Source: a virus
IMG/VR virus record: IMGVR_UViG_3300025131_007717
Location: 1 to 35,914 of that record
Strand: one strand, 5' to 3'
DNA length: 35,914 nt
The position numbers and the translations under genes were made by a program. Within the stretch, counting starts at the first letter, position 1; every line of letters begins with the position of its first letter. This document shows positions 1,119 to 35,914 of the stretch, one piece after another. Below the pieces are notes generated by a model. That model worked only from the letters and a program-made list of their open reading frames with translations. It ran no database searches and was not told where the DNA came from.

Positions 1119-1128
1119 TATTCTACCT

Positions 1129-6385: not shown

Positions 6386-6404
6386 AGATTCCCTTCTTTT
6401 AATA

Positions 6405-6436
6405 CTAATATAGTAATTTTTTTTGACTTATCCAAA
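6405..6436 (-). promoter_or_regulatory. Shared phage promoter (GATAAGTC-N12-TATATTAG), copy 1
   Basis: On the minus strand TTTGGATAAGTC is followed after exactly 12 nt by TATATTAG, and the start codon of the GT9-like gene comes 19 nt later, after an AGAAGGG ribosome site. The element starts 4 nt after the sulfotransferase-like stop codon. It is one of six copies with identical spacing in this window. It would give the distal half of the glycan cluster its own transcript. Confidence 0.82.
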
Positions 6437-6440
6437 TTAA

Positions 6441-7975: not shown

Positions 7976-7977
7976 AA

Positions 7978-9918: not shown

Positions 9919-9927
9919 CTTTATCTC

Positions 9928-10560: not shown

Positions 10561-10571
10561 ATATTATTGTT

Positions 10572-11427: not shown

Positions 11428-12700
11428 TTATTTTCTCCAACTTTTTTAGTTTTGGTAGATTCAACAATACTTTCTCAGGGGCTGAGGGTATTGCTTCCAT
11501 CATAGTTTTGAACTTTTCTAACATTAAATCTAATGTAAAATTTTCCTTTATATATTGAGTTTGTTTTCTGCTTCTAGTTAGATGAGCCTTATAATTTTTA
11601 TAAACATCTTTTAGAACTGCTGATGCATAATTAGGGTCTATAAAAAACCAACCTGAATCCTTTAATATTACATCTTTCCAAACAGAAGATTCATGTATTT
11701 TACCCAAGTTCCCTTTCAATAATATCCCATATTCAGAAAGGAAATCTACCTGCCCAGACCACCCAGATGCAATAGTCGGCTTACCAGTTATACTAAATTC
11801 TTGTAGAGGTCTTCCATATCCTTCTCCGTGAGTAAAAGATACCATAGCTTTTACGTTTTTATGATTATATAAACCGTTTAATTCTTCTGGTGTCATATCT
11901 CCATGTAGTAGATAGATGCTAACTCTATTATTATCTACTGCCTTTAGAATAAACCTCACCCTTTTTAACATCTCTTCTCTATCTGTTACAGAGTAGGTAG
12001 CTCCAGAGGTTTTAATTATCAAAGCTGGTTTATTTTTTAATTTGTTGAATGTATCGCAAAAAACTTTTATAACTCCTCCAACATCTTTTCTATCATGACC
12101 GAAATCTCCCTGAAGCCAGTGGCCTACCATTAAAAAACAAAAGTCTTCTTTAACTTGTTTCATAGATTCTATAACGGTTATAGGTATATCTGTAGTTTTT
12201 TTGAAAATACTAATATCTGATCCCTCAAATAATACTTCTATTGGTACTTCGCACTTAAGAGTTCCTTGTTTTTTCTTTGTATTTTTGTCCATTTTATCAT
12301 ATGATGATTCAATAAAGACTCTTTTAGAATGCTCTGAGGGTACGATTATTTTGTCCATTCTATTGATACCTTCAATCCATTGCGGACTAACTAGATTAGT
12401 TTCCATACCAGCAGTAATTCCTATATTATAAATGCCTACAGGCTGGAATTCGTTTGGTACTGTTACTTGTATCCAAATGTCTGGTTTATATTTTAATTCG
12501 TTAGTTTCCATTATGAGTGAAGAAATTGCCTCCTCTTTTTCAGTAAGAGCATTTTTTGGACATCCGCCCCAGCGTTGATCCATAATCTCAATATCAAATC
12601 TATTCATAGAAATTAAACTTTTTATTAAATCTCTTGCATGGTCTCCATAACCACTTCTTGATGTTGCTGGGCAACTTATAACTAATTTAGGTTTAATCAT
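11420..12700 (-). CDS. Family 4 glycosyltransferase (GT-B)
   Basis: A 426-residue GT-B protein. The N-terminal acceptor domain has the loop SRSGYGDHARDLI (14-26) and MDKIIVPSEHSKRVF (115-129). The C-terminal domain has HGEGYGRPLQEF (291-302), the E-x7-E-like nucleotide-sugar motif, and GKPTIASGWSG (306-316). Such retaining transferases use UDP- or GDP-sugars. The start overlaps the preceding GT4 gene as ATGA, so the two are co-translated, and the end overlaps the 154-residue gene by 8 nt. It probably extends the glycan after its neighbour. Confidence 0.9.
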   Translation of the reverse strand: MIKPKLVISCPATSRSGYGDHARDLIKSLISMNRFDIEIMDQRWGGCPKNALTEKEEAISSLIMETNELKYKPDIWIQVTVPNEFQPVGIYNIGITAGMETNLVSPQWIEGINRMDKIIVPSEHSKRVFIESSYDKMDKNTKKKQGTLKCEVPIEVLFEGSDISIFKKTTDIPITVIESMKQVKEDFCFLMVGHWLQGDFGHDRKDVGGVIKVFCDTFNKLKNKPALIIKTSGATYSVTDREEMLKRVRFILKAVDNNRVSIYLLHGDMTPEELNGLYNHKNVKAMVSFTHGEGYGRPLQEFSITGKPTIASGWSGQVDFLSEYGILLKGNLGKIHESSVWKDVILKDSGWFFIDPNYASAVLKDVYKNYKAHLTRSRKQTQYIKENFTLDLMLEKFKTMMEAIPSAPEKVLLNLPKLKKLEKIND

Positions 12701-14142
12701 ATCAATTCTCCCATTGGATAGTTTTCTTGTATATCTGCTTCTACTTTCATTATAGTAAAGTTTTTTCTTGGTATAAAGTTAGAAAAACAGCCTTCCATAG
12801 CTTTTATAAATGCATCAGCCATTCCTTTGTGGTTAAACTTATTTTTTATTGCCCAATTCCTACCAACTAATCCTCTTCTCTTTCTTTCTTGTCTTCCTCT
12901 ATCATACCAAACTTTTAGCTGATTTGTAATTTGACTTATACTAGCTCTTGAATCATATATATAAGGTGTTTTTGGTGAACCTTGCAAATTTAGTTGTGGC
13001 CATAGAGGTAAAGTCCATTCCCCATGATCAGTTGAAAGTTCACTTGTAGAATTACTAGGTATATCTGCTGTTAAATGTTTAACAGAAAATTCTTCTCCAT
13101 TAATCTTAAAGCCCATTTGATCTTGAAGTCCACCAAGTACTGTTGCAATTGTTGGCGTTCCAGCCATCAAAGATTCCATGTGAGACAGACCAAATCCTTC
13201 TGCAGAAGATGGGTTGCATGTAACATCTGCAAGATTATACATATAATTAAGAAATTTATCATCTATTTTTTGTGTGCTAAATTTTATATCATATTCTGGG
13301 CATAGTGCCTCTTTTACAGCTGGTAGATCTGTACCATTATCATCTATTGGGTCTGTGTGCATTATCAATACACATTTACTTGATTGTTCTTTTGTTAATT
13401 GATCACAAAGCTTTCTATACCCTAGGACTAGATCTGATGGGCTTTTTCTTCTAATATTTCTAGAATTGAAGAATAGTACAAAATCTTTTTCTTTATCGCC
13501 TAAAACTTCTTTTTTAAAATTCAGATAGTCGCCATCAGTTTCATCTATGGGTTTAAATATATTTTCATCTATTCCATGTTGGACATAAAATAAGTCTTTT
13601 TCTTCTACTCGGGGTTTTCTTTGGCAAACATGTTTATTAATATTATAAGTCTGCTTTGAAATTGCCATTAGTAAATCGCACGATTCATAAGCATTTTCAT
13701 TCCAATGGGGGTATGGTAGATCATCCCAAATGTTTAAATATGTAATAGGAATTTGTTGTCTTATTTCATGCTCCATTGCATATAACCATTCCCAAAATCT
13801 AGGGTCAGTAAAATGGCAGATGGCGTCTGGTTTTTCAGAGTCAAGTAAAGATCTAACTACATCTTGGTCACCATAACCAGCTATTGGTAATACCTTAACA
13901 TTTGCTGTACTATCTCCTGTCCATTTTTGAAAATCTGAGGATATGTCAACTATTCCTTTACCAGCATCAGGATGGTTTAATGCTCCTCCTATCTGAATCC
14001 AATCATATTTATGTACTGTTCCCCTCATGATTTCTCTGGTCATAGTTCCAACTCCAGATTTCAATCTACAATCATCTGATAACATTAGGATCTTCTTTTT
14101 ATGCGATAATTTATTTACTCGATTTAGCTTTGGTAATTTCAT
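12697..14142 (-). CDS. Family 4 glycosyltransferase (GT-B), first gene of the glycan cluster
   Basis: A 481-residue GT-B protein. KSGVGTMTREI (28-38) is the N-terminal glycine loop, YVQHGIDENIFKP (186-198) the interdomain motif, SRNIRRKSP (227-235) the phosphate-contacting Arg/Lys strand, and SSAEGFGLSHMESLMAGTP (312-330) the conserved E-x7-E donor motif. It is longer than most GT4 enzymes, with an extra segment of about 60 residues (350-410) and a C-terminal tail. The start at 14142 follows GAGG, which lies inside the end of the small ribbon-helix-helix gene 5 nt away, so the regulator-like gene and the cluster are probably on one message. Confidence 0.92.
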   Translation of the reverse strand: MKLPKLNRVNKLSHKKKILMLSDDCRLKSGVGTMTREIMRGTVHKYDWIQIGGALNHPDAGKGIVDISSDFQKWTGDSTANVKVLPIAGYGDQDVVRSLLDSEKPDAICHFTDPRFWEWLYAMEHEIRQQIPITYLNIWDDLPYPHWNENAYESCDLLMAISKQTYNINKHVCQRKPRVEEKDLFYVQHGIDENIFKPIDETDGDYLNFKKEVLGDKEKDFVLFFNSRNIRRKSPSDLVLGYRKLCDQLTKEQSSKCVLIMHTDPIDDNGTDLPAVKEALCPEYDIKFSTQKIDDKFLNYMYNLADVTCNPSSAEGFGLSHMESLMAGTPTIATVLGGLQDQMGFKINGEEFSVKHLTADIPSNSTSELSTDHGEWTLPLWPQLNLQGSPKTPYIYDSRASISQITNQLKVWYDRGRQERKRRGLVGRNWAIKNKFNHKGMADAFIKAMEGCFSNFIPRKNFTIMKVEADIQENYPMGELI

Positions 14143-16360: not shown

Positions 16361-18010
16361 TTAAAATCCCATTCCAGCCATTGTATCGGCTGCTTTATTA
16401 TTATTATCTTCTTTTATTTTTGTTACTACGCATTCTGTAGTTAGCATTGTTCCTGCTACTGAGACTGCTTTTTCTAGTGCAACTCTTGTTACTTTTGCTG
16501 GATCAATGATTCCTTCTTTGACCATGTCAACATAAATTTCTCTCCTTACATCATAACCATAAGAATTTGAAAAGGCCTCAGATTTACCATCTGGTCTTGA
16601 ATCATAGATATTATTCCAAATAACTTCAGCATTAAGACCAGCATTTTCCATTATATAATTGAAGGGGGCTTCGCAGGCTTTAAGTACTATTGAAATACCT
16701 TCATGTTGATCAGTATTTTCACCTTTCAAATTTACTATAGAAGATCTTGCTCTCATTAGTGCTATTCCTCCTCCTGGTACAACTCCCTCATCAATTGCAG
16801 CTCGTGTTGAAGCTAATGCATCTTCAACTCTATCTTTCTTTTCTTTCATTTCTAATTCTGAACCTGCTCCGATCTTCATTATTGCAACCCCTCCTATCAA
16901 TTTACCAAGTCTTTCTTGCATACCTTCCTTTTCATAAGAAGATGAAGAATCATCAATCATATTTTGGATTTCTTTGCATCTATTTTGAATAACTTCTGTT
17001 TCACCTCCACCATCAACTATAGTAGTTTGCCTATTATCTATTGTTATCACCTTTGCAGAACCAAACCATTCTGGTTCAAATTGTTCTAATTTCATACCCT
17101 TATCTACAGATACAACTGTTGCTCCAGTTAAACATGCAATATCTTCTAACATATCTTTTCTTTTGTCACCAAAGCCAGGAGCTTTAACTGCTGCAACTTG
17201 TAGTGTTCCTCTTGCTTTATTTACAATTAATCCAGCTAATGCTTCTCCATCTATATCTTCTGCAATAATTACTAAGGGTTTGGATTGTGCTATACAATAT
17301 TCTAACGTTTTTACTAAACTTTTTAATGATGTAATTTTTCTATCGTATAATAAAATCAAAGGTTCTTCCATTTGAACTAGCATTGATTGCTGATTTGTTA
17401 TAAAATATGGAGAGCAATATCCTTTATCAAATTGTAACCCTTCAACTACTTCTAATTCATCTTCAGCAGTTCTAGATTCCTCTATGGTTATCACACCATC
17501 ATTTCCAACTTTTTCCATTGCAGATGAAATAAGATTACCTATAGTTGAATCGTTATTAGATGAAATTGTTCCCACTTGTGTTATCTCTTCATTTGATGTT
17601 ACTTCAGTTGATATTTCATCAATACCTTCAATTATACCTTTTACAGCTAAATCCATACCTCTTTTTAATTCAATTGGATTAGAGCCATTCATAACTTTTC
17701 TATATCCTTCTTGTAGAATTGAATGAGCTAATACCGTTGCGGTTGTTGTTCCATCTCCAGCTTCATCGTTAACTTGATTTGCTACTTCTTTTACCATTTG
17801 AGCACCAGCATTTTGGATGGGGTCTTCCAATTCTATTTCCTTTGCAACTGTTACACCGTCCTTTGTAGAATGATATTGACCATAACCTTTTTCAAGAACT
17901 ACGTTTCTACCACTTGGCCCTAGAGTAGCTCTTACTGCTTCTGCTAGTTTATCAACTCCTATAAAAAGCTCCGTTCTTGCTTCTGTACTAAAACTTAATT
18001 TCTTTGACAT
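16361..18010 (-). CDS. groEL: Phage-encoded GroEL chaperonin
   Basis: A 549-residue full-length chaperonin. ATLGPSGRNVVLEKG (29-43) and KDGVTVAKEIELEDP (about 49-63) form part of the ATP site; AGDGTTTATVLA (about 84-95) is the nucleotide-binding signature; VEDALASTRAAIDEGVVPGGG lies in the conserved position near the catalytic Asp398 of E. coli. The C-terminus ends GMGF, a short form of the usual GGM repeats. AGGAG lies about 9 nt before the start. It folds proteins in the cytoplasm with GroES, encoded 3 nt upstream; a phage copy may serve virion or replication proteins or replace a limiting host chaperonin. Confidence 0.97.
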   Translation of the reverse strand: MSKKLSFSTEARTELFIGVDKLAEAVRATLGPSGRNVVLEKGYGQYHSTKDGVTVAKEIELEDPIQNAGAQMVKEVANQVNDEAGDGTTTATVLAHSILQEGYRKVMNGSNPIELKRGMDLAVKGIIEGIDEISTEVTSNEEITQVGTISSNNDSTIGNLISSAMEKVGNDGVITIEESRTAEDELEVVEGLQFDKGYCSPYFITNQQSMLVQMEEPLILLYDRKITSLKSLVKTLEYCIAQSKPLVIIAEDIDGEALAGLIVNKARGTLQVAAVKAPGFGDKRKDMLEDIACLTGATVVSVDKGMKLEQFEPEWFGSAKVITIDNRQTTIVDGGGETEVIQNRCKEIQNMIDDSSSSYEKEGMQERLGKLIGGVAIMKIGAGSELEMKEKKDRVEDALASTRAAIDEGVVPGGGIALMRARSSIVNLKGENTDQHEGISIVLKACEAPFNYIMENAGLNAEVIWNNIYDSRPDGKSEAFSNSYGYDVRREIYVDMVKEGIIDPAKVTRVALEKAVSVAGTMLTTECVVTKIKEDNNNKAADTMAGMGF

Positions 18011-18013
18011 TTA

Positions 18014-18301
18014 TTATTCTCCTATTATTGTTTCTAAATCTGGTTCCCTGATTATTAGGTATTCTTCACCTTCCAATTCAGTTTTTCTTGCACTGTGTTT
18101 TAGAAATACTACCATATCTCCAACTTTACATTGCATAGCTCCTCTTGACCCAGATAACAATAATACTCCTGGACCAACCGCTACAACTTCTCCTGTTACT
18201 ACAGCTTCTTGAGTAGTATCAGGCATAATAACGCCTCCGGATGTAATATCATCTGCGTCTGTTTTTTTGATTACGACCTTGTCGCCAATTGGGTATAACA
18301 T
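18014..18301 (-). CDS. groES: Phage-encoded GroES co-chaperonin
   Basis: A 95-residue GroES of normal length. LYPIGDKVVIKK (2-13) opens the Cpn10 fold, GGVIMPDTTQE (22-32) is the mobile loop that contacts GroEL, and GEVVAVGPGVLL (about 37-48) and KVGDMVVFLKHS follow in the usual order. It lies directly upstream of groEL in the same order as bacterial operons. The start at 18301 follows AAAGG about 8 nt upstream. Having both partners matters because several known phage chaperonins or co-chaperonins occur alone. Confidence 0.96.
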   Translation of the reverse strand: MLYPIGDKVVIKKTDADDITSGGVIMPDTTQEAVVTGEVVAVGPGVLLLSGSRGAMQCKVGDMVVFLKHSARKTELEGEEYLIIREPDLETIIGE

Positions 18302-18365: not shown

Positions 18366-20819
18366 TCAACTATTGATATTTTCATTATATTTTTCTAATA
18401 ATTCTTCTATATAAGGCATTTGCTGAAATTCTTCAATTGGAACTATACACTGCTTGTAAAATAGTATATCATAATCAATTTCGAATTTGTCTTTATTTTT
18501 ATCAATTAAATGCAAATCATCTTCATTTATACAAATAGCTTTATGCCTTTCTTTTATTTTTTTGTCGTCTTCAATTTGAGATTTAACATAAAATAGATAG
18601 GGATTATCTAAATTAGTTAATTCTGTTCCTAAAATATCATTTGCCCAAACAGCAGCTTTTACATGCTGGGGCATTGTTTTTGTATAAGTATTAAATGGTT
18701 TTCCAAAGGCTTTGGCCATACCAATCTTTTGATATGGTTGTGATTCAACCTCTTTACGTAAATTTAGAATCCAATCTAAAGTTAATTTTTTTGTTACAGC
18801 TAACTCAGCCATATCATTTAATCTTTTCTTTAAGAACTCTGGTGTTTCTTTACGTATAATATTCATCCCTCTTATTACTTTCTTTCCTGAACCTTTTATT
18901 ATTCCATAATATCTTTTCTTTACATCTCCAAAATATATTCTATCTAAATAGTATTCAAATTTCAAATCTAAGAACATGAAGTCTTTTACTGGACCAGTAT
19001 TATGCTTTTTTACAAAATCCTTATATAAAGAATCATTATATTCTTTTTGCATTCCTTTCATACCATCCTCATCTTTACCATTAGATTTTATGAATACAGA
19101 ATCTGTATCTGCATATAAAGGTTTATGACCTTTATTGTTAAAATGAATTAGGCCAAATTTCAAAGCCTGTCTTGCAAAGAATGTAACTGCATCTGCACAT
19201 TCAAATAAGCACATTCTAAATAATGAATATCCCATTGCACCATATGCAGAATTCATAATAATTTTATATGACCATTGTCTTTTATGCATTGCTTCACGAT
19301 TACCAGAAGAAATTTCTCCAGCTTTTAATGCTCTATTGATCTCTACCCTTTGAACAAATATCTTTTTAAGTATTTGTGGTATTATACCAACTTTGTGTGT
19401 ATGACCATAAAACAAATATCTCCTACCGAATAAATCCTTAGAATATCCAGTGTCTACGTAATCTATATTATCATCTTTCAGTTGTTGTACTACATCTTCG
19501 ATATCTATACCGCCCTTCTCGCACTGTTCTTGGGAGCATATGAAAGTTTCTGGTGAAATGTTAAATGCCATCATAGTTGTTGGATATAGCGAAGTATAAT
19601 CCATTACTGTTACATTTTCATTCAAGCCTGGTTCTGTTGGATCAATAACTATAGCCCCCTGATAATCTCTTCTGCGTTTTGAATATCTAGTAGGGAAAAT
19701 AGTTTTATTATGGAATTCTTTGCACATGTAATTATCACATAGCATTGATTTAAAGAATACAAGATTTAACGTTTGTAAATTTGCAATTTGTTGCATTGAA
19801 ATGTATAAGTCAAATACTTGAACTTTTTCATTTATCTCTTTAAGAATCTCAACATCACGTACAGCATATTTTAAGAATCCTTCATAATCATCTAACCAAT
19901 CCTTCCAGGTTGATGCTGTTAATTTTCCAAATTCTTCATCTTTAAGAATAACCTTTGCTGCTGTTGCCAATTTCCAATTTGGCAAATTATATTTCAAATC
20001 TTGTAAAGCTTCCATCATATCAATATGGTCTAAACCTTTTATTTGAAATTTCCAATAATCACCTCTTTTTCTAATATAATAATCTTTTACCGGAGATAAC
20101 TCTTCAATCGGTAATCCAAGGCGTTTGCTTCTATTTAATATATAAGGCATATCATAACCAGAAGAATACCACCCAGAAAGAATATCTGGTTTGCAGGTTT
20201 TAACTAAGTTAATAAACCCAAGTAATACATCTTCTTCTGTTTTACAAAAGACATATGTTACATTATCCTTGTCAACAAATTTTGGTTCTGTAAAATTCTT
20301 AGTCTTTTCTGGGTGCCATGAAAATACAAAATACTTCTTAGCTTCACTTGAATATGCAACTATTGAAGTAATAGGCATGTTTGGTGAATCAGGTCTGTTT
20401 TGAGATGAATCATTGGGATCATACCAAGTCTCAATATCTAAATACATAAAGTGACGCTTAGTAGACCATTCCAAGTTGTTATCCAATATAAACTTAAACT
20501 CTGGAGTTAGGTCTGCTTGGTAAGTGCGTTTTATATGTTTCTTTGTTAATCTATTTTTGTTTTTTATAGAAGTATAATATACACGTAGAAGATCTTTACC
20601 ATCTACAGATTTATATATTTCATCGCCTGGGGTTTTCATACCAGGGAAATCATCTATATCAGAAATGTGCTCAGCATCATAGTAAAAGTAATCTTTATAC
20701 TTTTCTTTTATCTGTACATTCTTTCCATTGCTATCATATCCTGATAGATGCATATCCCATTCGCCCTTATTAAAGTGTGATGTGATTTTAGAAACTTTTA
20801 TATTATTCAGCATACCCAT
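18366..20819 (-). CDS. Family B DNA polymerase (T4 gp43-like)
   Basis: An 817-residue replicative polymerase with proofreading domain. Exo I is LDIE (Asp128, Glu130), Exo II is GWYSSGYD (216-223, Asp223) and Exo III is YAVRD (Tyr318, Asp322). Polymerase motif A is DYTSLYP (407-413), motif B KIIMNSAYG (519-527), motif C YADTDS (569-574), followed by a KKRY motif. The Exo II Asn usual in GWN is Tyr217, an oddity. It is shorter than T4 gp43 (898). The shared promoter at 20835-20866 lies 15 nt upstream; ribosome site is weak. It copies phage DNA with the helicase, SSB and recombinase encoded upstream. Confidence 0.96.
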   Translation of the reverse strand: MGMLNNIKVSKITSHFNKGEWDMHLSGYDSNGKNVQIKEKYKDYFYYDAEHISDIDDFPGMKTPGDEIYKSVDGKDLLRVYYTSIKNKNRLTKKHIKRTYQADLTPEFKFILDNNLEWSTKRHFMYLDIETWYDPNDSSQNRPDSPNMPITSIVAYSSEAKKYFVFSWHPEKTKNFTEPKFVDKDNVTYVFCKTEEDVLLGFINLVKTCKPDILSGWYSSGYDMPYILNRSKRLGLPIEELSPVKDYYIRKRGDYWKFQIKGLDHIDMMEALQDLKYNLPNWKLATAAKVILKDEEFGKLTASTWKDWLDDYEGFLKYAVRDVEILKEINEKVQVFDLYISMQQIANLQTLNLVFFKSMLCDNYMCKEFHNKTIFPTRYSKRRRDYQGAIVIDPTEPGLNENVTVMDYTSLYPTTMMAFNISPETFICSQEQCEKGGIDIEDVVQQLKDDNIDYVDTGYSKDLFGRRYLFYGHTHKVGIIPQILKKIFVQRVEINRALKAGEISSGNREAMHKRQWSYKIIMNSAYGAMGYSLFRMCLFECADAVTFFARQALKFGLIHFNNKGHKPLYADTDSVFIKSNGKDEDGMKGMQKEYNDSLYKDFVKKHNTGPVKDFMFLDLKFEYYLDRIYFGDVKKRYYGIIKGSGKKVIRGMNIIRKETPEFLKKRLNDMAELAVTKKLTLDWILNLRKEVESQPYQKIGMAKAFGKPFNTYTKTMPQHVKAAVWANDILGTELTNLDNPYLFYVKSQIEDDKKIKERHKAICINEDDLHLIDKNKDKFEIDYDILFYKQCIVPIEEFQQMPYIEELLEKYNENINS

Positions 20820-20834
20820 TCTTTTTATTATATA

Positions 20835-20866
20835 CTAATATAACAAATTTTATTAACTTATCCAAA
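20835..20866 (-). promoter_or_regulatory. Shared phage promoter (GATAAGTT-N12-TATATTAG), copy 2
   Basis: On the minus strand TTTGGATAAGTT is followed after exactly 12 nt by TATATTAG, ending 15 nt before the DNA polymerase start codon, in the 72-nt gap after dut. It is the only copy with T instead of C at the last box position. It would drive polB and perhaps groESL. Confidence 0.82.
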
Positions 20867-22621: not shown

Positions 22622-22653
22622 CTAATATAATAAAAAAAATTGACTTATCGAAA
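22622..22653 (-). promoter_or_regulatory. Shared phage promoter (GATAAGTC-N12-TATATTAG), copy 3
   Basis: Minus strand TTTCGATAAGTC, 12 nt, then TATATTAG. The upstream box begins immediately after the stop codon of the 83-residue gene. The start codon of the dNMP kinase is 4 nt beyond the -7-type box, so a transcript starting at normal distance would be leaderless or would start inside the gene. Confidence 0.82.
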
Positions 22654-25123: not shown

Positions 25124-26467
25124 CTATCCATTTAATTCTTTGAACTTATTACCAAGCATTTTCCTTAAGTATTCAGAATTATTATTTATATCCTCCTGTG
25201 CTGCTTGTCCTTGAACAGTGGCTCCATCGTAAATATCTATTTGACCATTTGAAGCATTCATCTTACTTGGTAATGTAATTCCGTCAGGTCCAAATCTATT
25301 TTTAATAATATGCCATCTTCCAGTTCCAGCTGCTTTATCTTCTATTTTACGAGATAAAGATATAACAAAGTCTGCTGTCATAATCTTGGAATATGATTCT
25401 GCAATCTTGTCAGCTTGTATTACGTCTTCTTGCAATGCAGACCTATTTGCTTGAGATGCGGTCCATACTGGTACTTCATATTCACCAGCTAAACCTCTTA
25501 AGTCTTCATAGATATTACCAAGTTCATGCCTAACCTCTCTACCATTTCCTCTTAATAAATCTGCATAATCTACTATTATCAAATCGGGCATCCTACCTTG
25601 TATCTTGCATTTTTCTATATGTGAACCTATAGATAAAACTGTTGCCCCTTTTGTTGGATAATATTTTATAATCAATTCTCCAGATATATTCTTTACCCGT
25701 TTCTTTACATCATCCAAGTTATACTTTAATTCTTGAGCTGGTATCCCTGTAAAAATTGCATCATATCTTAGCCCAACATACGCTTGATTTAATTCCAATG
25801 TATAATGCAATACAGTTTTACCAGCTTTTACAGCATTCGCTCCAATGTTTGCTAATGCCCAAGATTTACCTATACCGGCGGGTGCCACCATTACTCCAAG
25901 CTCTCCACTACCTAACCCCCCATCGGACAAATCATCAATTACTTCCCAACCGGTTGTAATTGTGTTACGAACACTTGACTTATACCTATCATCGATTTCG
26001 GTATTATATTCGTGGCCGATATTTCTGTCGCCTCCTGCCTTCATTGCTTCGTCTATTTTAACCTTTATGGCATCAAACTCACCGCTCTCTAGCAGGTTAA
26101 CGGATTCAACGATGGCACCCTTTAATTTTTGATTTTTACAAAACTTAATAGATTCTTCTTTGATAAAGTCTAAATCAGATGAACCAGCACTTCTCATTGC
26201 ATCTTTTAGCGAAGATACAACTGAAGTTTCCAATACATCGTCTGTTAGCTCTTTTATCTTTACTTTCATCACCTCCATTGTTGGTGGAGATTTAAATTCT
26301 ACTACATGGCTTTTTATACATTTAACAATAAAAGAAGTTGCTTCAGATTCAAAATATCTATAGTCTAATATATCAGATATCTGTTGTAGGAAATTCTTAT
26401 CTGTTAATAATGCTGCTATTAACTTAACTTGGAAGTTGTAACCAAAATCTGAAAGTTTATTTATCAT
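25124..26467 (-). CDS. DnaB/T4 gp41-like replicative DNA helicase
   Basis: A 447-residue SF4 helicase. The N-terminal domain (1-150) is helical. TTGWEVIDDLSDGGLGSGELGV (171-192) leads into Walker A APAGIGKS (195-202). Walker B is PDLIIVDYADLL (294-305, Asp300), and VWTASQANRSAL (334-345) is the H4/sensor motif. A DNA-contacting segment follows near 365-395. It unwinds DNA ahead of the polymerase as a hexamer. No primase is visible in the window. The start overlaps the exonuclease stop by 11 nt with AAAGG upstream, so the two are co-translated. Confidence 0.93.
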   Translation of the reverse strand: MINKLSDFGYNFQVKLIAALLTDKNFLQQISDILDYRYFESEATSFIVKCIKSHVVEFKSPPTMEVMKVKIKELTDDVLETSVVSSLKDAMRSAGSSDLDFIKEESIKFCKNQKLKGAIVESVNLLESGEFDAIKVKIDEAMKAGGDRNIGHEYNTEIDDRYKSSVRNTITTGWEVIDDLSDGGLGSGELGVMVAPAGIGKSWALANIGANAVKAGKTVLHYTLELNQAYVGLRYDAIFTGIPAQELKYNLDDVKKRVKNISGELIIKYYPTKGATVLSIGSHIEKCKIQGRMPDLIIVDYADLLRGNGREVRHELGNIYEDLRGLAGEYEVPVWTASQANRSALQEDVIQADKIAESYSKIMTADFVISLSRKIEDKAAGTGRWHIIKNRFGPDGITLPSKMNASNGQIDIYDGATVQGQAAQEDINNNSEYLRKMLGNKFKELNG

Positions 26468-27497
26468 ATTTAGCCTTTGTGTCTAAAGATAAGAATACAT
26501 CTCTTATCCAAAATTCTATATTTTTTACTATTTGCATTCTATCTTCTAAAAGCATTTTCATAAAGTCGTATTTTACAAACGATGGTATTGGAGCTTTTAC
26601 TATATTTTGCAATCTTTCTTTTGCTGAACCAGAGATATCTGCTTCATGTAATTGCATTAGCTTATAATTTAGATAGAGCTTTTCTTCATTATCTTTTATT
26701 AAATCCAATTGCCTAGAAGGAATTGAATTGGTTTTTGCATATTCTATAATATCCTCTAATGTTAATACATCAGTGCCGAATAGTATTGGTAAATATTTTA
26801 TAAGTGATTTATGACCCAAGCCTCGTATACCTGGTACATTGTCACCTTTGTCTCCTAATAAACATTTATATAAAATATAATTTTCGGGTCTTAACTCAAA
26901 TTCATCTTTAACATCATTTTGGAAATAATATTTCTTTTTGGTTGGTGACCAAACTGTAATTCTTTTATCTACTAATTGTATGAAATCTTTATCAGAAGAC
27001 ATTATAAAACATTTACTATTTGAAAGTAATTGTTTACAAATATAAGCTATAGAATCATCAGCTTCTATCTTATCTATAGTTGCTAATGTTATTGGGCAGT
27101 TACTTAAATAATTCAATAGTCTTTGCATTTGATTTTTCATTGCAAGTCTATTATCTTCTGCTGAATCTTGTTGATGTGCAGCCCTTAGTAATTTCCTATT
27201 AACTTTGCGATTTTGCTTATATTCTGGAAGTAGTTTTCTTCTACGTTGGCTTCCCCCAGCTCCATCAAAACAAATTATAACCCTAGTTGGTTTTATATTT
27301 TTAATTGCATAACCAATAGAAAGTAGAAAACCCTTTATACCTCCAACATGAATTCCATCATCATTAGTAGATGGATTCATAACAAATGCTCTGATAAACG
27401 TATTCAGCCCATCTATTAAGAGGACTCTATCGTTTAATCCTAATTTGGTATCGTCTTCTTTTAATGTGCTTAGTATATCGCTATAATACTTTTTCAT
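26457..27497 (-). CDS. 5'-3' exonuclease of the FEN/T4 RNase H family
   Basis: A 346-residue nuclease with the metal-binding acidic residues of the family: LLIDG (Asp29), ICFDGAGGSQRRRKLLPEYK (Asp78 and the basic loop), KIEADDS (Glu145, Asp147, Asp148), SSDKDF (Asp169, Asp171) and LGDKGDNVPGIRGLG (Asp216, Asp219, helix-hairpin-helix start). Such enzymes remove RNA primers and 5' flaps during lagging-strand synthesis. No polymerase domain is attached. It starts after a 161-nt gap containing two hairpins; no clear ribosome site precedes the ATG. Confidence 0.94.
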   Translation of the reverse strand: MKKYYSDILSTLKEDDTKLGLNDRVLLIDGLNTFIRAFVMNPSTNDDGIHVGGIKGFLLSIGYAIKNIKPTRVIICFDGAGGSQRRRKLLPEYKQNRKVNRKLLRAAHQQDSAEDNRLAMKNQMQRLLNYLSNCPITLATIDKIEADDSIAYICKQLLSNSKCFIMSSDKDFIQLVDKRITVWSPTKKKYYFQNDVKDEFELRPENYILYKCLLGDKGDNVPGIRGLGHKSLIKYLPILFGTDVLTLEDIIEYAKTNSIPSRQLDLIKDNEEKLYLNYKLMQLHEADISGSAKERLQNIVKAPIPSFVKYDFMKMLLEDRMQIVKNIEFWIRDVFLSLDTKAKYDK

Positions 27498-27658: not shown

Positions 27659-28807
27659 TTAGCCTATCGGGACATCATCGTTACCAATCTCTACGTCGTC
27701 TATACCTATATCTCCTGTTTGATAAGACATAACCAATGCATTACATATCGATTGATAAACTCTTTCCTTACGTTCCGGATTATTTAAGATTTTACTTTCG
27801 AATTCCTTAGACATAAATTTAATCTCTTCTCCAGTTTTGGAATCTGTGTATGTATACCAAGATCCTCCTTGTTGTACAAGATCATAATCTTTCATAACTT
27901 GTAGCCATGAACCATAATCATCAATACCTCTATCGAAATATATTTGAAATTCTGCAATTCTTAATGGAGGTCCCATCCTATTCTTAACTACTTGAGCCTT
28001 TAGTTTAATACCAATTACTTGTTCTTTTCCATCAACTTTAGCTTTTATCTGCCCTGCTGCTTTTAATCTTAATCTACAAGAAGCATGGAATCCTAGAGCT
28101 TTTCCACCAGATGTTGTATAGGGATCCCCGAAGGAAACGCCCAATCTTACTCTTAGTTGATTTGTAAATACTAAGCAAATTCTTTGGCGTCCTATTAATT
28201 GTGTCATCTTCCTCATTGCTTTTGAAATTATAATAGCTTTGCTTGTAGCCCAACCATCTTTTTCAAAATCTGCTTCTTGCTCTACTTTTGTTGTTGCTCC
28301 TGCTACTGAATCAACTATAATTGTAACTAGCCGATTGTTATCTGACTCTCTAATTTTTAGAATAATATTTTCAATAACTTCAAAAATATCTTCAATAGCT
28401 TCTAGCTGTATGTATAACATACTTTTTATATCTATACCTATAGCTCTTGCGAATTCTTCATTCATAGCGTTTTCAGTATCTATATAAACTGCTAATCCCT
28501 TTTGCTTCTGAGTATTAGCTAATAAGTGAGCACCAATTAAAGATTTACCAGAGGCTTCTAAACCGGTTAATTCGGTTATCCTCCCAACTGGTATACCACC
28601 ATTAGGTCTATTTGAAATTGCTAAATCTAACAAAGATGAACCGGTGGATACCCATTCAGTTAAATCTGTTGGTGTATCCTCCGCTCCATCTAAGAAATAT
28701 GCAACCTTCATTGATTTAAATTTCTTATTAAGTGAGTCTGCAATAACTCCGGCTAGTTCGTCTCGTTCTGCAATACTTTGCTTTTGCTTTTTATTCTTTC
28801 TAGCCAT
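27659..28807 (-). CDS. recA: RecA/UvsX-family recombinase
   Basis: A 382-residue strand-exchange protein. GRITELTGLEASGKSLIGA (75-93) contains Walker A GLEASGKS, a run ending IIVDSVAGATTK (about 165-176) is Walker B, and TNQLRVRLG with the downstream SGGKALGFHASCRLRL form the conserved L2-region signature. The motif order and TNQ-R...GGKAL are close to bacterial RecA; length resembles UvsX. The C-terminus is acidic (DDVEIGNDDVPIG), typical of RecA regulation. It promotes homologous pairing and recombination-dependent replication. AGGAG lies 7 nt before the start, 9 nt after the SSB gene. Confidence 0.94.
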   Translation of the reverse strand: MARKNKKQKQSIAERDELAGVIADSLNKKFKSMKVAYFLDGAEDTPTDLTEWVSTGSSLLDLAISNRPNGGIPVGRITELTGLEASGKSLIGAHLLANTQKQKGLAVYIDTENAMNEEFARAIGIDIKSMLYIQLEAIEDIFEVIENIILKIRESDNNRLVTIIVDSVAGATTKVEQEADFEKDGWATSKAIIISKAMRKMTQLIGRQRICLVFTNQLRVRLGVSFGDPYTTSGGKALGFHASCRLRLKAAGQIKAKVDGKEQVIGIKLKAQVVKNRMGPPLRIAEFQIYFDRGIDDYGSWLQVMKDYDLVQQGGSWYTYTDSKTGEEIKFMSKEFESKILNNPERKERVYQSICNALVMSYQTGDIGIDDVEIGNDDVPIG

Positions 28808-28816: not shown

Positions 28817-29569
28817 CTAATTATTGAATAGATCGTCAAAAGCAGTATCTATATCATCAGTTTTCTTAACGCCTGCTACAGCAGGAGTTGCTTTTACTGG
28901 TTCAGTATCTTCACCTTCACTTGGATTTAACCATTCTTCCAATGCTGCTTTCAAATCTTCATAGGAAACTTTCTTGAAAATATTCATCAAGTCTTCTTGA
29001 CCATTCATAATATTTTCTGCTACTGCTTTATCTTCTGTTGCAGGTGATTGGTTAGGTTTAACCATAATTGCAGTTTTAGGGAAACGTTCTTGCCCTTCTG
29101 CTGGCGTGAATGTTACTGTAATATCTCTACCAGATTTTAAATCCGTAATATCACCGTAATCTGGGTCTGCTATAAATGTTAATAGTTCTTGATAAACTGT
29201 TTTACCAAATCCCCATAATTTAACACCTTCAGATTCTTGGCCTCTTACTAATACAGGAACGTAAGTTCTCATTTTAGGAGTAAGTCCCTTTGCCAGTTGC
29301 CAGTCATCTCTGTTACCAGTTTGCTTTAGTTTGTCAGCAAATTCTGATACTGGGTCTGCTTCACCAAAAGTAGTTGGTGATAGATAATTCCTTTTACCTA
29401 AACCATAGTGAAAGAATAATTCCTGAAATGGGTTATCTTTGTCGTACTGATAAGGTACTATTCTTACTTGGTTTTTACCTGGTTCAGGTTTCCATAAATT
29501 CGACGTTCTAGTCGTCGATGTTTGTAATCCTTGTAATTTCTTACGGATTGCTTCTAAATCAATTGCCAT
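28817..29569 (-). CDS. Single-stranded DNA-binding protein (T4 gp32-like)
   Basis: A 250-residue protein with the gp32-like order: an N-terminal helix (IDLEAIRKKLQGLQ), a beta-barrel core containing LWKPEPGKNQVRIVPYQYDKDNPFQELFFHY (25-55), and a very acidic C-terminal tail (EGEDTEPV... DDIDTAFDDLFNN) that normally contacts polymerase, helicase and recombinase. No zinc-binding Cys/His cluster as in T4 gp32 is visible. It coats single-stranded DNA during replication. The start follows AAAGGAG, 16 nt after the Hc1-like gene, and recA follows 9 nt later. Confidence 0.9.
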   Translation of the reverse strand: MAIDLEAIRKKLQGLQTSTTRTSNLWKPEPGKNQVRIVPYQYDKDNPFQELFFHYGLGKRNYLSPTTFGEADPVSEFADKLKQTGNRDDWQLAKGLTPKMRTYVPVLVRGQESEGVKLWGFGKTVYQELLTFIADPDYGDITDLKSGRDITVTFTPAEGQERFPKTAIMVKPNQSPATEDKAVAENIMNGQEDLMNIFKKVSYEDLKAALEEWLNPSEGEDTEPVKATPAVAGVKKTDDIDTAFDDLFNN

Positions 29570-30190: not shown

Positions 30191-30222
30191 CTAATATAAG
30201 AATTTTTTTTGACTTATCCAAA
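30191..30222 (-). promoter_or_regulatory. Shared phage promoter (GATAAGTC-N12-TATATTAG), copy 5
   Basis: Minus strand TTTGGATAAGTC, 12 nt (eight A then TTCT), then TATATTAG, 25 nt before the start of the membrane protein and in an 81-nt gap. With copy 1 it is the best match to the consensus. Confidence 0.84.
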
Positions 30223-31119: not shown

Positions 31120-33171
31120 CTATCTACATACCTTTTTAAGATTACCAGCATATACTGCATTAGGTCTTGCCACCCAATTTCCATTTTTATCTTGAGCTGG
31201 TTCAAAACCTGGGCTTGCTTGGAATGCCATATTATTTATGCAATTTATACCATCGCTCATTTCTATCTCACCAGTCTTAGTATTTGCGTTTGCGTTTGCA
31301 TAATCTTGAAAAGCTAAATCATTGTTATGTACTTCCTGTAGGATTAACCCTCCTCTAGAATATTGTTCCATGCCATCAAGTAACATTTTCTTATTTTCAT
31401 CAGTCATTCCTTTATACTTACCATCAGCTTCCCACTTTGCTAGATTATCCTCTGCCCATTGTCTAGGCGTCCTTCCATCTTTGAATTTAAGATCTCCCTT
31501 TATTAAGCCTGCCTTTCTTGCTGCTTTTTCTTCTTTGTCTAATACAGCCTTACCAGATTGTATCTTTTCTTCTGATAATTCAGCACCTTTACTTTTACCC
31601 CCAATAAAATTATTATGTTGGTTTAATACATTTGTTAAACTTTCTTTAGTAGTTTCTGTTTTGAAAGTAGTCATTCCTAATTTTGCAGTAAATCCTGATG
31701 CTGCTCCTCCATCTTTCTTAACACTTAAGCCACCAGCATCTGTCATAGTAACTATGGTTTCTCCTCCAGCTGCTATTTTCTTAATGTAGTCTGGGTCATT
31801 TGGATCTAAGTCTTCAATTGGAAATTGTATTAAATCTGCTACAGGAAATGTTTCACCTGCTGGTGCTATTGTTGGTTTGCCATTTTTATTGTTGGCAAGT
31901 AATACTAATGATTCAGCTAGATCTGGTGCTGCTTTCGAAATAGAAGCAGCATTACCCATCCTCTTTAAAATTTCCATAGACTCTTTTTCATACTCAGAAG
32001 GGTCATCTATATTTGATAGATTTTCTAGATCGGTCACTATCTGTTTTTCAGCTTTTGTAGGATTTTCACCTAGAGCTTCTTCCAATTTATTAGCTATTAC
32101 CTTGGGGCCTTCTTTTGCTAACTTATCTCTACCCTCTTTAGTTGCAGGGTTTGCACCTTCTACTAATGATACTGAGTCTAGGTTATCTATCTTATCGTAA
32201 GAATCTATAAGATTGTTATATCTTATAATACCACTTTGTAATTGTTCAACTTTGTGTTCTACATCTTCATCAGATATACCAGGATTCTGTTCTTTATATT
32301 CTACAATTTCTTTTATTAGTGAATCTGTATCTGGCATTGACTGTCTTCTCATGGTATGATCTCCAACTTTTACTTCAGTGATCTTTCCATCAACTCTAGT
32401 CTTTTCAACTTTGTTTGAAATAGTTTTACCCATTTTACTCAAGGTTAAGATTTTACCACCAATCTTAACTGGTACAGACTCAGAGGAAGTTACAGGATCA
32501 GCTTTTTCCATTCCCTTATCTACCATGCTTTGTTTTACTGCCTTACCAGCTTCTCCTGTACCAAATTTCAATTTATCTCTAGCACCCTGTTTGAAGTTTC
32601 CAGGTTTTTGATTTGCTAAATATATAGTTGTTTCATTAGGATTATCTTTTATTCTTGCATATTTGTTTAGTGTTGCCATTTCTTCTTTACTAACATCATC
32701 GCCATTTATCAATTTAGGTAATGCTTCAGAGAAGACTTTAGAATCTTGTTCATTTGCAAAAGCAATATTGTCAATCTTAGCTTTGGATTTTTCAATAAAC
32801 CCTGGTTTGGCTTTATCTATTTTTTTCTGTAGTTTTTCATCTGCCTTTGCATCTGTAGGTTTAGCTTTTGGCTTTTTCTTTTTCACCGTATCTTTTGCTT
32901 TAGGGTCAGCATCACCAGCAGTAGTATCCTTTCCACCTATATTAACTTTAGTGGTTGATCTCATATCATGCTGGGCATTATATTTTGCAAACTCTGCTTT
33001 ATTTTTAAAGTCTATTTCAGCAATGAATTTATTTATAAACTCCTCTGTCATTCCGTTTGCACGCAAAGTTGTTTCAAGAAGATCTAAGTGATCTTTCTTG
33101 CCAGGATCGGGCATACCATCATTTACTCGCCAAGCCCAATCTTTAACTAGTTTATCAATTAACATATTCAT
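31120..33171 (-). CDS. Large virion-type protein (683 residues), function unknown
   Basis: It opens with DKLVKDWAWRVNDGMPDP (6-23), a motif I associate with large structural proteins of marine T4-like phages. A segment around 67-88 (DMRSTTKVNIGGKDTTAGDA) follows, then a Lys/Ala-rich low-complexity stretch (about 88-120), long acidic helical regions, and a C-terminal part with INCINNMAFQASPGF ending LKKVCR. There is no signal peptide or membrane segment. A tail, baseplate or internal head protein is likely; the exact role is not visible. The start lies 5 nt after the GATATTTAT element; no ribosome site is visible. Confidence 0.78.
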   Translation of the reverse strand: MNMLIDKLVKDWAWRVNDGMPDPGKKDHLDLLETTLRANGMTEEFINKFIAEIDFKNKAEFAKYNAQHDMRSTTKVNIGGKDTTAGDADPKAKDTVKKKKPKAKPTDAKADEKLQKKIDKAKPGFIEKSKAKIDNIAFANEQDSKVFSEALPKLINGDDVSKEEMATLNKYARIKDNPNETTIYLANQKPGNFKQGARDKLKFGTGEAGKAVKQSMVDKGMEKADPVTSSESVPVKIGGKILTLSKMGKTISNKVEKTRVDGKITEVKVGDHTMRRQSMPDTDSLIKEIVEYKEQNPGISDEDVEHKVEQLQSGIIRYNNLIDSYDKIDNLDSVSLVEGANPATKEGRDKLAKEGPKVIANKLEEALGENPTKAEKQIVTDLENLSNIDDPSEYEKESMEILKRMGNAASISKAAPDLAESLVLLANNKNGKPTIAPAGETFPVADLIQFPIEDLDPNDPDYIKKIAAGGETIVTMTDAGGLSVKKDGGAASGFTAKLGMTTFKTETTKESLTNVLNQHNNFIGGKSKGAELSEEKIQSGKAVLDKEEKAARKAGLIKGDLKFKDGRTPRQWAEDNLAKWEADGKYKGMTDENKKMLLDGMEQYSRGGLILQEVHNNDLAFQDYANANANTKTGEIEMSDGINCINNMAFQASPGFEPAQDKNGNWVARPNAVYAGNLKKVCR

Positions 33172-33176: not shown

Positions 33177-33201
33177 ATAAATATCAAAAAACTAAGCTAA
33201 A
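33177..33201 (-). promoter_or_regulatory. Candidate late promoter element (GATATTTAT with TTTAGCTT box)
   Basis: Minus-strand TTTAGCTT followed by TTTGATATTTAT, overlapping the last codons of the PolA-like gene and ending 5 nt before the start of the 683-residue virion-type gene. It matches the element at 806-830 at about 21 of 25 positions, although one lies partly in coding sequence and the other is intergenic. Confidence 0.48.
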
Positions 33202-34217
33202 AGTTTCATATCATTGTAGTTATTACCAGTGTGTATTTTTACTGGGAAGTCTAATTCTTTTGCTATTGTGTCTTTCAAATTCATCTCCTCTTTAGATATA
33301 TCAAATAGAAATGCATCATACGTATATAATATCAATTTAGATTGTTTCCCTTCTAGGATATTTTCCATATTCTGAATTGTTTTTATATTTCTTTCTGTTT
33401 CGTAAGCTTGTATTAAATAATTAAATAACTTTTGAGGGTTCATGTCTGCCAGATTTCTTTTATATAACCTTCGCTTGAAGACTGGAGTCTGAATATAACC
33501 CTTGTTATTATAAATATCCCATAAGTTAGAAATGTAAGCTTTAACTTTATCGAAATATTCAATACCTTCCAATTCTTTAGGTACTCCCCCATAAAGAACT
33601 TGGAAAGACATAGATTTTGATTGCTTATATTCTTCCTTCGTAACAGACTTAACACCGTAAAATTGCTTTGCAAAATATTCGTGTACTGAAGATGATGGTA
33701 ATTTGTAATCTATAAGGGCTGCAATTAGTCTAATGTGATATGCATCAAAATCCATTTCTAATAAACACCCAGAATTAAATCTACTTATATACTTTTCTCT
33801 AGTTCCATCAGCTTTATTTAATGCTGCATAATTAATACCCTTGTTTGCATTAGAGGGTCTGCCAGTAATAGTAAATAAATTATACTTAGAATACTCATAG
33901 CCGCTATTAGTATATAAACCATTTCTTTCTATTCTATTAAAAATTGGTAAAATCAGATTTTCGTAAGTTTCAGCCACTTGTGAATCATAGTCTGAAATAT
34001 CTAGGCTGTCTAAGAAAGCTTTTAATCTTTCAATATATTCACGATGTTTGCAGTTTGGTATTACATCAGATATATCTTGACGATTCCAATATAATCGATT
34101 GAAGAATTTTTGCGCCTCAGGTTTTAATATATCCAAATCTATACTCTTTCCATCTTTAATATAGGTTTGTACACGCACTTTATTTTCTAAATCTATTGTA
34201 ACCTGGTTTATTTTCAT
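33192..34217 (-). CDS. Compact family A DNA polymerase-like protein (palm/fingers only)
   Basis: A 341-residue protein with family A polymerase motifs: TGRPSNANKGINY (118-130, compare TGR-S...NLQNIP), motif A LEMDFDAYHIRLIAAL (153-168, Asp156), motif B KSMSFQVLYGG (201-211, equivalents of Lys758, Phe762 and Tyr766 of E. coli Pol I), N-x3-Q at Asn266/Gln270, and motif C YTYDAFLFD (298-306, Asp301, with Ala replacing the second acidic residue). Arg754 is replaced by Tyr197. No 3'-5' or 5'-3' exonuclease domain exists. It lies among virion-type genes behind promoter copy 6, its start 4 nt after the box. A repair, gap-filling or degenerate role is possible. Confidence 0.82.
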   Translation of the reverse strand: MKINQVTIDLENKVRVQTYIKDGKSIDLDILKPEAQKFFNRLYWNRQDISDVIPNCKHREYIERLKAFLDSLDISDYDSQVAETYENLILPIFNRIERNGLYTNSGYEYSKYNLFTITGRPSNANKGINYAALNKADGTREKYISRFNSGCLLEMDFDAYHIRLIAALIDYKLPSSSVHEYFAKQFYGVKSVTKEEYKQSKSMSFQVLYGGVPKELEGIEYFDKVKAYISNLWDIYNNKGYIQTPVFKRRLYKRNLADMNPQKLFNYLIQAYETERNIKTIQNMENILEGKQSKLILYTYDAFLFDISKEEMNLKDTIAKELDFPVKIHTGNNYNDMKLLA

Positions 34218-34221: not shown

Positions 34222-34253
34222 CTAATATAATCAATTTTTACGACTTATCGAAC
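34222..34253 (-). promoter_or_regulatory. Shared phage promoter (GATAAGTC-N12-TATATTAG), copy 6
   Basis: Minus strand GTTCGATAAGTC, 12 nt, then TATATTAG, only 4 nt before the PolA-like start codon. The box overlaps the end of the preceding gene, whose TAA stop lies inside GATAAGTC. The TTTG of other copies is not kept here. Confidence 0.8.
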
Positions 34254-34640
34254 AAATTTGGCAAAATCTTTTATAGTATTTTTAAGCTGTGGCAGCTTTT
34301 TACTTGCTAAGTTACAATAGTATTCATTAACGGAATTTACTGTTATTGCTGTCATTTTATTTACAATTGGTAAATTGGTTCTAGTTATATACCAATTCAT
34401 TGAAGCTTTTTTATAAAGACCTTTTGGTAAGTCTGAAAATTTACTTGAAAAGAACTTAAAATCTGTTTCTATTGCTTCATGTGAGTCGTATCTTGCTATG
34501 AAAAATCTTTTGAAGTATCCCTTCTTATAATCCTTTTCATTAGGTTTACGGAAAATATTTACTGGTGATATTGTAGGCTTACCAAAATCGTCTGTCAATT
34601 GTCCATAAGTGCTATTACTATCTATATTTTCATCTATCAT
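34245..34640 (-). CDS. Small virion-type protein
   Basis: A 131-residue protein. I chose the ATG at 34640 because it overlaps the upstream stop as ATGA; the longer in-frame start at 34733 would read 97 nt into that gene. Segments include TYGQLTDDFGKPTISPVNIF and GYFKRFFIARYDSHEAIE, the latter resembling a motif of phage structural proteins. The C-terminal half is helical and basic. Being coupled to the hub-like gene suggests a tail or baseplate part. The stop codon lies within promoter copy 6. Confidence 0.7.
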   Translation of the reverse strand: MIDENIDSNSTYGQLTDDFGKPTISPVNIFRKPNEKDYKKGYFKRFFIARYDSHEAIETDFKFFSSKFSDLPKGLYKKASMNWYITRTNLPIVNKMTAITVNSVNEYYCNLASKKLPQLKNTIKDFAKFVR

Positions 34641-35914
34641 CCTTTTATCTCTACTCCTATTTTTGCAAATAATGGAAGGGGTCTTTCCTTCTGTGGTATC
34701 ATTCTCATCATACAAGTTAAAGTGGTGGTCCAACCGCTATCGCTTATACCATTACTAACTTTTGTAATTTGAAATAATACTTTATCTTTATATCTATTAG
34801 GTAATACTCCCCCATCTTCTACTACATCCATTGTTAAACTGTTACCCTGGTATATTCCTGATATACCGTCTAGAGTCAAAGATAATTCAAGAGGTAATAA
34901 TCTGGGAGCTGCAACAGCATTTTCTTTCATATTCTCAGCTAAGTGTAGTTTTGAACCAAAGACTAAATTATTAACTATTTGCTTTTGGGCTTGTCTTGGG
35001 CTTAAAGAATCTTTCCTTTCTGGTGTTTGCATAAATTGATTTGCAAAAGTTGTAGACCAATCCAATATAAGATTTGCCTTTTTTTCAATAAAATCCGCTT
35101 TTAATCTACCCGGTGATTTGCTTTTCTTTCCCAAGTTTCCAGAATAAAACCCATCTATTATTTGGTCCCCATAAATATTAAATGAATTTGCAGTTTTATC
35201 TCCCGTATTTAAAGATGGATTTTTATTAGAGATAAAAGCCATTGAAGCTACTGCTTTTGGTAGCTTAGAAGCCATGGATACAGTCTTCAAGATATTTCCA
35301 CTTCCTATACCTTTAAATCTATAGTGCTTTGAAATAGATGATGGTTCTAGTATTTCTCCCTTTTTAGAACTTAAACTTTTGACACCATCTAAAAATGGAT
35401 TTAATTCTCTTTTTTGTGTTTTGGCTCCCATTACATAATTTTTATCTACAACTTGTAATACATGAGAATCACTTTCGTTTGCTTGTAGGGCAAAATCCCA
35501 AGGGTTACCGCAAGCATCGTTTATATCTGCTAATAAAGTTGTAACAAAACCTTCAAAGGATCTCTGACTATTAAGTACTGATATAACATGTTTAGTATTT
35601 ACTAGTATATCTCTAATATTTCCACTAGAATAATTTCCAAATTGAGTAATTTCACTTTCTTTTATATTATTTGTGAAAAATCTTCCTTCTCCTTTCACAA
35701 TATCATCAAAAGCATATTTATTGATATCTTTAAAATTAGCAGCTACTTCAGCATTAAATGGTTTCTCATCAGCATCTAACTCAACACCAATCTCCTCAGC
35801 TATGGTGAGCATATCTTTTACCCTGTCGAAATGAGCATCAGATTGTTTATCTGTTAGCATGCAGATATGTGGGTCCATTGACATAATACAAGGATGATTG
35901 ATACATTGATTAGA
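34637..35914 (-). CDS. Baseplate/tail hub-like structural protein, 5' end cut by the window
   Basis: At least 425 codons; the frame stays open from the ATG at 35884 to the window edge (upstream residues include NHPCI), and no ribosome site precedes that ATG, so the real start lies outside the window. The C-terminal part LLPLELSLTLDGISGIYQGN, followed by LPNRYKDKVLFQITKVSNGI and WTTTLTC, matches a pattern of phage tail/baseplate proteins (LSL-x-DGISG...F-I-x-x-V-x-H-x-I...W-T-T). Earlier parts are rich in Asn, Ser and Lys. It is followed by the small virion-type gene with an ATGA overlap. Exact place in the tail is not known. Confidence 0.75.
   Translation of the reverse strand, partial: SNQCINHPCIMSMDPHICMLTDKQSDAHFDRVKDMLTIAEEIGVELDADEKPFNAEVAANFKDINKYAFDDIVKGEGRFFTNNIKESEITQFGNYSSGNIRDILVNTKHVISVLNSQRSFEGFVTTLLADINDACGNPWDFALQANESDSHVLQVVDKNYVMGAKTQKRELNPFLDGVKSLSSKKGEILEPSSISKHYRFKGIGSGNILKTVSMASKLPKAVASMAFISNKNPSLNTGDKTANSFNIYGDQIIDGFYSGNLGKKSKSPGRLKADFIEKKANLILDWSTTFANQFMQTPERKDSLSPRQAQKQIVNNLVFGSKLHLAENMKENAVAAPRLLPLELSLTLDGISGIYQGNSLTMDVVEDGGVLPNRYKDKVLFQITKVSNGISDSGWTTTLTCMMRMIPQKERPLPLFAKIGVEIKG

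Follow-up and report, generated by a model that had tools for sequence, protein, structure and literature searches.

A short divPolA1-type family A DNA polymerase, probably an accessory replication enzyme, beside a family B polymerase in a phage genome

Introduction

Why a phage should carry a second DNA polymerase, of a family other than its main one, is the question raised by the DNA analysed here, a stretch of 35,914 nucleotides (IMG/VR virus record IMGVR_UViG_3300025131_007717, positions 1 to 35,914), hereafter called the window. An earlier note, made from the letters alone, had described a compact family A-like polymerase next to virion genes and had regarded two polymerase families in one phage as unusual. 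The latter view is fair, since more than one polymerase occurs in only 8 of 563 polymerase-bearing subtrees according to PMC11348598 (Yutin et al., Virol J 2024). As described there, divPolA1, first reported in 14 phages including Flavobacterium phage immuto, is a divergent PolA that these genomes encode in addition to a regular PolA, PolB or PolC; its palm residues are conserved, its thumb is truncated and its 3'-5' exonuclease domain is inactivated. It lies upstream of a conserved replication array, and GroEL/GroES lie near the regular polymerase. The family itself, already known since 2024, is therefore not new, and a full-text literature search for its name returned only that paper and its preprint. 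The earlier interpretation of the window gene is partly supported by the results below.

Results and discussion

Identity and fold of the second polymerase

33192..34217, minus strand: divPolA1 gene, 341 aa; short form, a thumbless, exonuclease-less family A DNA polymerase (open reading frame, profile, model and alignment)

The gene that the earlier note had placed here is real. Its open reading frame starts with ATG and has exactly these bounds, to which we add the strand that the note had left unstated. The protein scored 39 bits with the Pfam profile PF00476 (DNA_pol_A), above its gathering score of 34.3 (E 6e-10), and matched the PHROGs family phrog_17, 'DNA polymerase' (E 5e-10). PF00476 was the sole match in a Pfam scan up to E 10, in which the T7-type RNA_pol profile was unmatched. 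An AlphaFold2 model made with 43 related sequences as input had a mean pLDDT of 92 and a pTM of 0.87; its best PDB fold matches were to the Bacillus (Bst) Pol I large fragment (E 8.5e-15, probability 1.00), and DNA polymerases made up all 50 of the top 50 PDB matches listed. A sequence-only PDB search gave a weak match at best (E 0.09). Both checks proposed in the earlier note thus point the same way, with DNA_pol_A above its cut-off, no other family assigned and a confident palm fold on the Pol I large fragment.

The protein showed 38.7% identity over 225 residues to that of Immutovirus (Flavobacterium phage immuto; E 8e-48), with which it also has the invariant residues given below in common, and at least 552 relatives were found, most of them contig fragments; E-values from the collection scans were computed over candidate stretches only. 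The window gene is almost certainly a member of divPolA1, a lineage of accessory family A polymerases carried by large, mainly marine myophages. A cellular origin was considered and rejected: one scan of bacterial and archaeal genomes yielded seven short contigs, mostly from metagenome bins, which look like binned phage contigs, and three of the seven are labelled Winogradskyella or Flavobacteriaceae. Kinship with divPolA2 was rejected as well, as the divPolA1 profile did not match AUR84708. In the account given in PMC11348598, divPolA2 of barbaviruses and Vibrio phages is likewise an extra thumb-lacking PolA-like protein, lying beside a regular PolB, but has a different N-terminal domain and a variable gene neighbourhood.

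Loss of the thumb and of half of a dead exonuclease domain

33921..34217, minus strand: N-terminal part, residues 1-99, helical throughout (aligned with relatives of ~440 aa and with Klenow; helices in the model)

Only 17 residues separate IERNG from TGR in the window protein, compared with 121 in Klenow, indicating that the thumb, about 100 residues, has been lost; the earlier note had missed this deletion. It had held that both exonuclease domains are lacking. The protein indeed has no proofreading domain, but the 3'-5' domain is not wholly absent, as its helical half seems to remain: residues 1-99 are probably what is left of the C-terminal half of this domain, now dead, the assignment resting partly on inference. 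Relatives of about 417-459 aa have a complete but dead domain, in which D355 is replaced by Pro or Gln and other Asp residues are lost, and the model of one of them (L046) reached a query-normalised TM-score of 0.77 against a Klenow structure. The short form in the window is without the N-terminal half of this domain (about 100 residues), where D355 and E357 would sit. In comparison with E. coli Pol I, divPolA1 has no thumb, no working 3'-5' exonuclease and no fused 5' nuclease, FEN being encoded by a separate gene.

Most short forms are 332-344 aa long. All 20 short sequences, including one whose start call is uncertain, formed one monophyletic clade (FastTree support 0.96), a topology consistent with a single N-terminal loss. 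Forms of 316-324 aa in the tree (L035, L036 and L043) are artefacts of ATG-only start calling; with GTG or TTG starts, they extend to about 424-430 aa. No sign was found of a split gene with the N-terminus encoded next door, as the upstream open reading frame had no family match and short length is common to the monophyletic clade. The clade had a pN/pS of 0.22-0.47 and a dN/dS of about 0.14-0.36, indicating purifying selection on divPolA1. The window protein shares with the divPolA1 of PMC11348598, as characterised there, the extra PolA, the kept palm, the truncated thumb, the replication array, GroEL/GroES and apparently the loss of the exonuclease aspartates, but it is more reduced, with 341 aa instead of ~417-459 aa and about 100 aa missing N-terminally. 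With palm and fingers and without a thumb or working exonuclease, it is among the most reduced family A polymerases in this analysis.

Catalytic motifs

33849..33872, minus strand: TITGRPSN motif; R120 corresponds to R668 of E. coli Pol I (alignment)
33723..33758, minus strand: motif A, EMDFDAYHIRLI; D156 corresponds to D705, and H161 stands in place of the steric-gate E710 (alignment, 64 of 64 relatives)
33588..33629, minus strand: motif B, YKQSKSMSFQVLYG; Y197 for R754, with K201, F205 and Y209 corresponding to K758, F762 and Y766 (alignment)
33300..33329, minus strand: motif C region, LILYTYDAFLFD; D301 corresponds to D882, with H881 replaced by Tyr and E883 by Ala (alignment)

Sixty-four non-identical divPolA1 relatives were aligned with Klenow and Taq. 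Equivalents of R668, D705, F762, Y766, G767, Q849 and D882 were present in all of them and those of K758, N845, R712 and H734 in 63, while the R841 equivalent depends on the alignment. With E. coli Pol I/Klenow and the Bst large fragment, divPolA1 has the palm and fingers fold and motifs A, B and C in common; with E. coli Pol I/Klenow it also shares the equivalents of R668, K758, F762, Y766, N845, Q849, D705 and D882, but its steric gate and motif C are altered. All 64 relatives have His for E710, Tyr for R754, Tyr for H881 and Asp for S707, and the E883 position is Ser in 49 and Ala in 15. The alignment agrees with the family A positions read in the earlier note (D156, K201, F205, Y209 and D301), with its Ala after D301 and with its Tyr at R754; the E710-to-His change had escaped it. 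In a wider set comprising 157 distinct sequences, fragments among them, His occupied the gate in every readable motif A. Five relatives (L238, L245, L246, L260 and L263) keep R754 and have His at E710 with DSYH in motif A; they may represent intermediate stages of the family's divergence.

R754 and E710 of Pol I aid dNTP binding and selection. The window protein has His, Tyr and YD(S/A) instead of the canonical E710, R754 and HDE motif C, but these are not strictly defining for family A, and motif C varies among active enzymes. The main PolA of immuto has HDQ in motif C together with E at the gate and R at 754, as read from its translation; the E710 and R754 changes are therefore specific to divPolA1 rather than a trait of the host or phage lineage. 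Neither the E710-to-His and R754-to-Tyr replacements nor the promoter class described below, nor so wide a spread, is discussed in the part of PMC11348598 that deals with divPolA1.

Since the thumb, R754, E710 and the second carboxylate of motif C are all gone, divPolA1 might be a scaffold for replication proteins with weak or no catalysis. However, a scaffold would not need the equivalents of D705, D882, R668, F762, Y766 and Q849, invariant here. Furthermore, Tt72 pol, the family A enzyme of a Thermus phage, has Ser at E883 and is active, its D705 and D882 equivalents being critical (PMC9324360), so that YDA or YDS does not imply a dead enzyme; Tt72 pol differs from divPolA1 in being full-length, with strong proofreading and a kept E710 equivalent (PMC9324360). 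We consider the scaffold rather improbable.

The His at the gate is the most interesting change, because E710 sterically blocks ribonucleotides (restated in PMC9324360). Its presence in every relative with a readable motif A could point to a primase-like or RNA-polymerase-like offshoot of family A that makes or extends RNA. The D-S of divPolA1 motif C, which resembles T7-type RNA polymerases, would fit the same reading. Against it stand the Pfam and fold matches, confined to DNA_pol_A and, among the top 50, to DNA polymerases, and the length of 341 aa, which leaves no room for an N-terminal promoter-binding domain. In addition, six large genomes carrying divPolA1 have a separate gp61/DnaG-like primase, making a primase role unlikely; nulls with the Toprim_4 profile mean nothing here, since it also missed T4's own gp61. 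An RNA-making enzyme is thus very unlikely.

Gene neighbourhood

34637..35914, minus strand: C-terminal portion of a tail-region protein of ~1150 aa, cut off by the edge of the window (46% identity to L095:6040-9504)
28817..29569, minus strand: SSB, gp32-like single-stranded DNA binding protein
27659..28807, minus strand: UvsX-like recombinase
26457..27497, minus strand: FEN, 5'-3' flap/RNase H-type exonuclease, the proposed partner
25124..26467, minus strand: DnaB-like replicative helicase
16361..18301, minus strand: GroEL and GroES, marking the locus of the regular, swappable polymerase (read from the sequences; same position in Immutovirus; PMC11348598)

Several neighbours were named from their sequences. 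On the minus strand, tail-region genes are followed by divPolA1, small genes, SSB, UvsX, FEN and DnaB, then by ribonucleotide reductase, nucleoside kinase-like, thymidylate synthase-like and dUTPase genes, PolB, GroES and GroEL, and finally by a PD-(D/E)XK nuclease and glycosyltransferases. divPolA1 is preceded by genes for tail sheath, tail tube and lysin and by large unnamed genes, and L095:6040-9504 itself comes after tail sheath, tube and lysin genes. The earlier note had put the gene among virion genes; it stands instead where the tail module meets the replication module. Taking SSB as the starting point, divPolA1 lay 1.9-6.3 kb upstream in 28 of 28 loci, those with at least 6.4 kb of upstream sequence. 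FEN was present in 23 of 24 records searched, the T4 control included, the exception being an 18.5 kb contig. An ATP-dependent ligase occurred in six large contigs, and a search for one found none in Immutovirus, Mel-JY01 and LR756508.

This neighbourhood bears on the main rival to gap filling, a recombination or lesion-bypass polymerase that would extend UvsX-made D-loops or cross damaged bases rather than fill Okazaki gaps. The position of divPolA1 directly upstream of SSB and UvsX, the lack of proofreading and the His for E710, which could loosen the active site, all fit such an enzyme, but no signature separates it from a gap filler, and the presence of FEN and ligase agrees no less well with gap filling. 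We regard this alternative as possible, though unlikely.

The genes flanking divPolA1 received no name from PHROGs or Pfam. One of them, directly after it (31120-33171, minus strand), encodes a 683-aa protein without a match in either; over its first ~57 residues it matches the N-terminal end of a 380-aa protein encoded at the equivalent position in another genome (G006), and beyond these the two differ. At the other end of the window (834-14142, minus strand) lies an extended series of genes, identified by eye, for glycosyltransferases, nucleotide-sugar epimerases, a WecE-like aminotransferase and methyltransferases; Flavobacterium phage immuto has a similar series at the same relative place.

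Promoter class

34222..34249, minus strand: promoter element GATAAGTC-N12-TATATTAG of divPolA1 (repeated element; spacing rule from PMC6847099)
6405-6432, 20835-20862, 22622-22649, 30191-30218 and 34222-34249, minus strand: window copies of GATAAGTC-N12-TATATTAG

The separate promoter claimed in the earlier note is supported. GATAAGT-N-TATATTAG occurred five times in the window (0.02 expected), in each case just before a gene, namely divPolA1, PolB, a kinase-like gene and two others. In two related genomes of ~135 kb, a slightly looser pattern gave 15 copies each (0.1-0.3 expected), preceding divPolA1, FEN, primase, PolB and small unnamed genes, with FEN and primase identified by position. Most relatives have a promoter-like element at a similar distance before divPolA1. 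A generic sigma-70 scan stayed at chance level (40 versus 38) and did not reveal the element, and a scan for the T4 late promoter TATAAATA was also at chance level.

Among other roles, the earlier note had suggested end repair, and it had raised packaging into virions; the corresponding reading is a packaged enzyme that would repair genome ends after injection. The upstream neighbours are indeed tail-region genes, but divPolA1 has its promoter class in common with PolB, FEN and primase and is in fixed linkage with replication genes. The virion link is thus unsupported, end repair has no specific support, and we consider a packaged enzyme highly improbable.

Exchange of the main polymerase

18366..20819, minus strand: regular family B DNA polymerase with exonuclease domain (same promoter class as divPolA1, at 20835-20862)

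The complete family B polymerase reported earlier was confirmed. Among contigs of 60 kb or more, 21 of 22 had a regular polymerase beside divPolA1 (18 family B, two C and one A); in the exception (G065), divPolA1 lies at the very contig end, and PolA was left out of its search. Flavobacterium phage immuto is largely colinear with the window, with a 778-aa PolA replacing PolB at the GroES/GroEL locus, and other divPolA1 relatives have a family C main polymerase. The main polymerase has thus been exchanged between families A, B and C while divPolA1 stayed, as also reported in PMC11348598 for the genomes described there and extended here to more genomes. The role of divPolA1 therefore seems independent of the replicase type, and from this exchange we infer a role other than bulk replication, as the earlier note had proposed.

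Some regular polymerases appear to be divided between two frames. In G054 (C1:5059-6160) and G061 (C1:113366-114467), the family C polymerase occupies two open frames of about 440 and 750 aa, which appears to reflect an intron, an intein, a split gene or a frameshift. In a 484-kb phage (W02, LR756508.1; 260623-266900), family B polymerase matches lie in two large frames, of 1022 and 625 aa, which are separated by several kb; this suggests an insertion or a split gene.

Proposed role

We propose the following scenario, with gap filling as the main role of divPolA1, to which we assign a probability of roughly one half. The protein would be an active but weakly DNA-gripping, distributive and non-proofreading polymerase. 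The separate 5' nuclease FEN would remove primers and leave short gaps, divPolA1 may fill these a few nucleotides at a time, with a partner such as SSB or FEN holding the DNA, and a ligase would then seal the product. Short recombination intermediates that UvsX produces may be a further substrate for extension by divPolA1. The work of E. coli Pol I would in this way be split between separate gene products for nuclease and polymerase, with processive synthesis left to the main polymerase.

The computed basis of the gap-filler scenario is the kept palm and fingers with both Asp residues, the linkage to SSB, UvsX, FEN and DnaB, and the promoter class of replication genes. Against it, both E710 and R754 are replaced, and a thumbless protein may be unable to hold primer-template alone. 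In T4, moreover, FEN and ligase suffice without a divPolA1-like enzyme, and the host presumably encodes a Pol I itself, which counts against the need for gap filling by divPolA1. Shared position and promoter are an association and no proof of a shared reaction.

More speculatively, and with little probability in our estimation, the thumbless, His-gated polymerase could be held by SSB, UvsX or FEN and have relaxed sugar selection, filling gaps with dNTPs or rNTPs or extending RNA primers. If true, a Pol I would here be put together in trans, for which we know of no precedent among characterised family A enzymes. As a fixed part of a widespread marine phage group with swapped main polymerases, divPolA1 offers a clean test of which task in phage replication persists through a change of replicase. 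It likewise allows one to ask whether an enzyme like Pol I can function when its thumb is missing and its steric gate is His. With the cultured Flavobacterium immuto phages, these questions can be tested.

Hosts and transcript starts

The Bacteroidetes promoter TTTG/TANNTTTG has a spacing of 4-5 nt to the start site (PMC6847099), and the phage element, with a preceding TTTG or TTTC, resembles it. This likeness, the fact that immuto infects Flavobacterium, and the bins labelled as flavobacterial indicate that the hosts of divPolA1 phages are probably Bacteroidota, although Mel-JY01 is recorded from Microcystis. In several genes the element sits 6 nt before the ATG, and leaderless mRNAs are therefore predicted; with the 4-5 nt spacing of PMC6847099, the predicted start of the divPolA1 mRNA is the A of its ATG.
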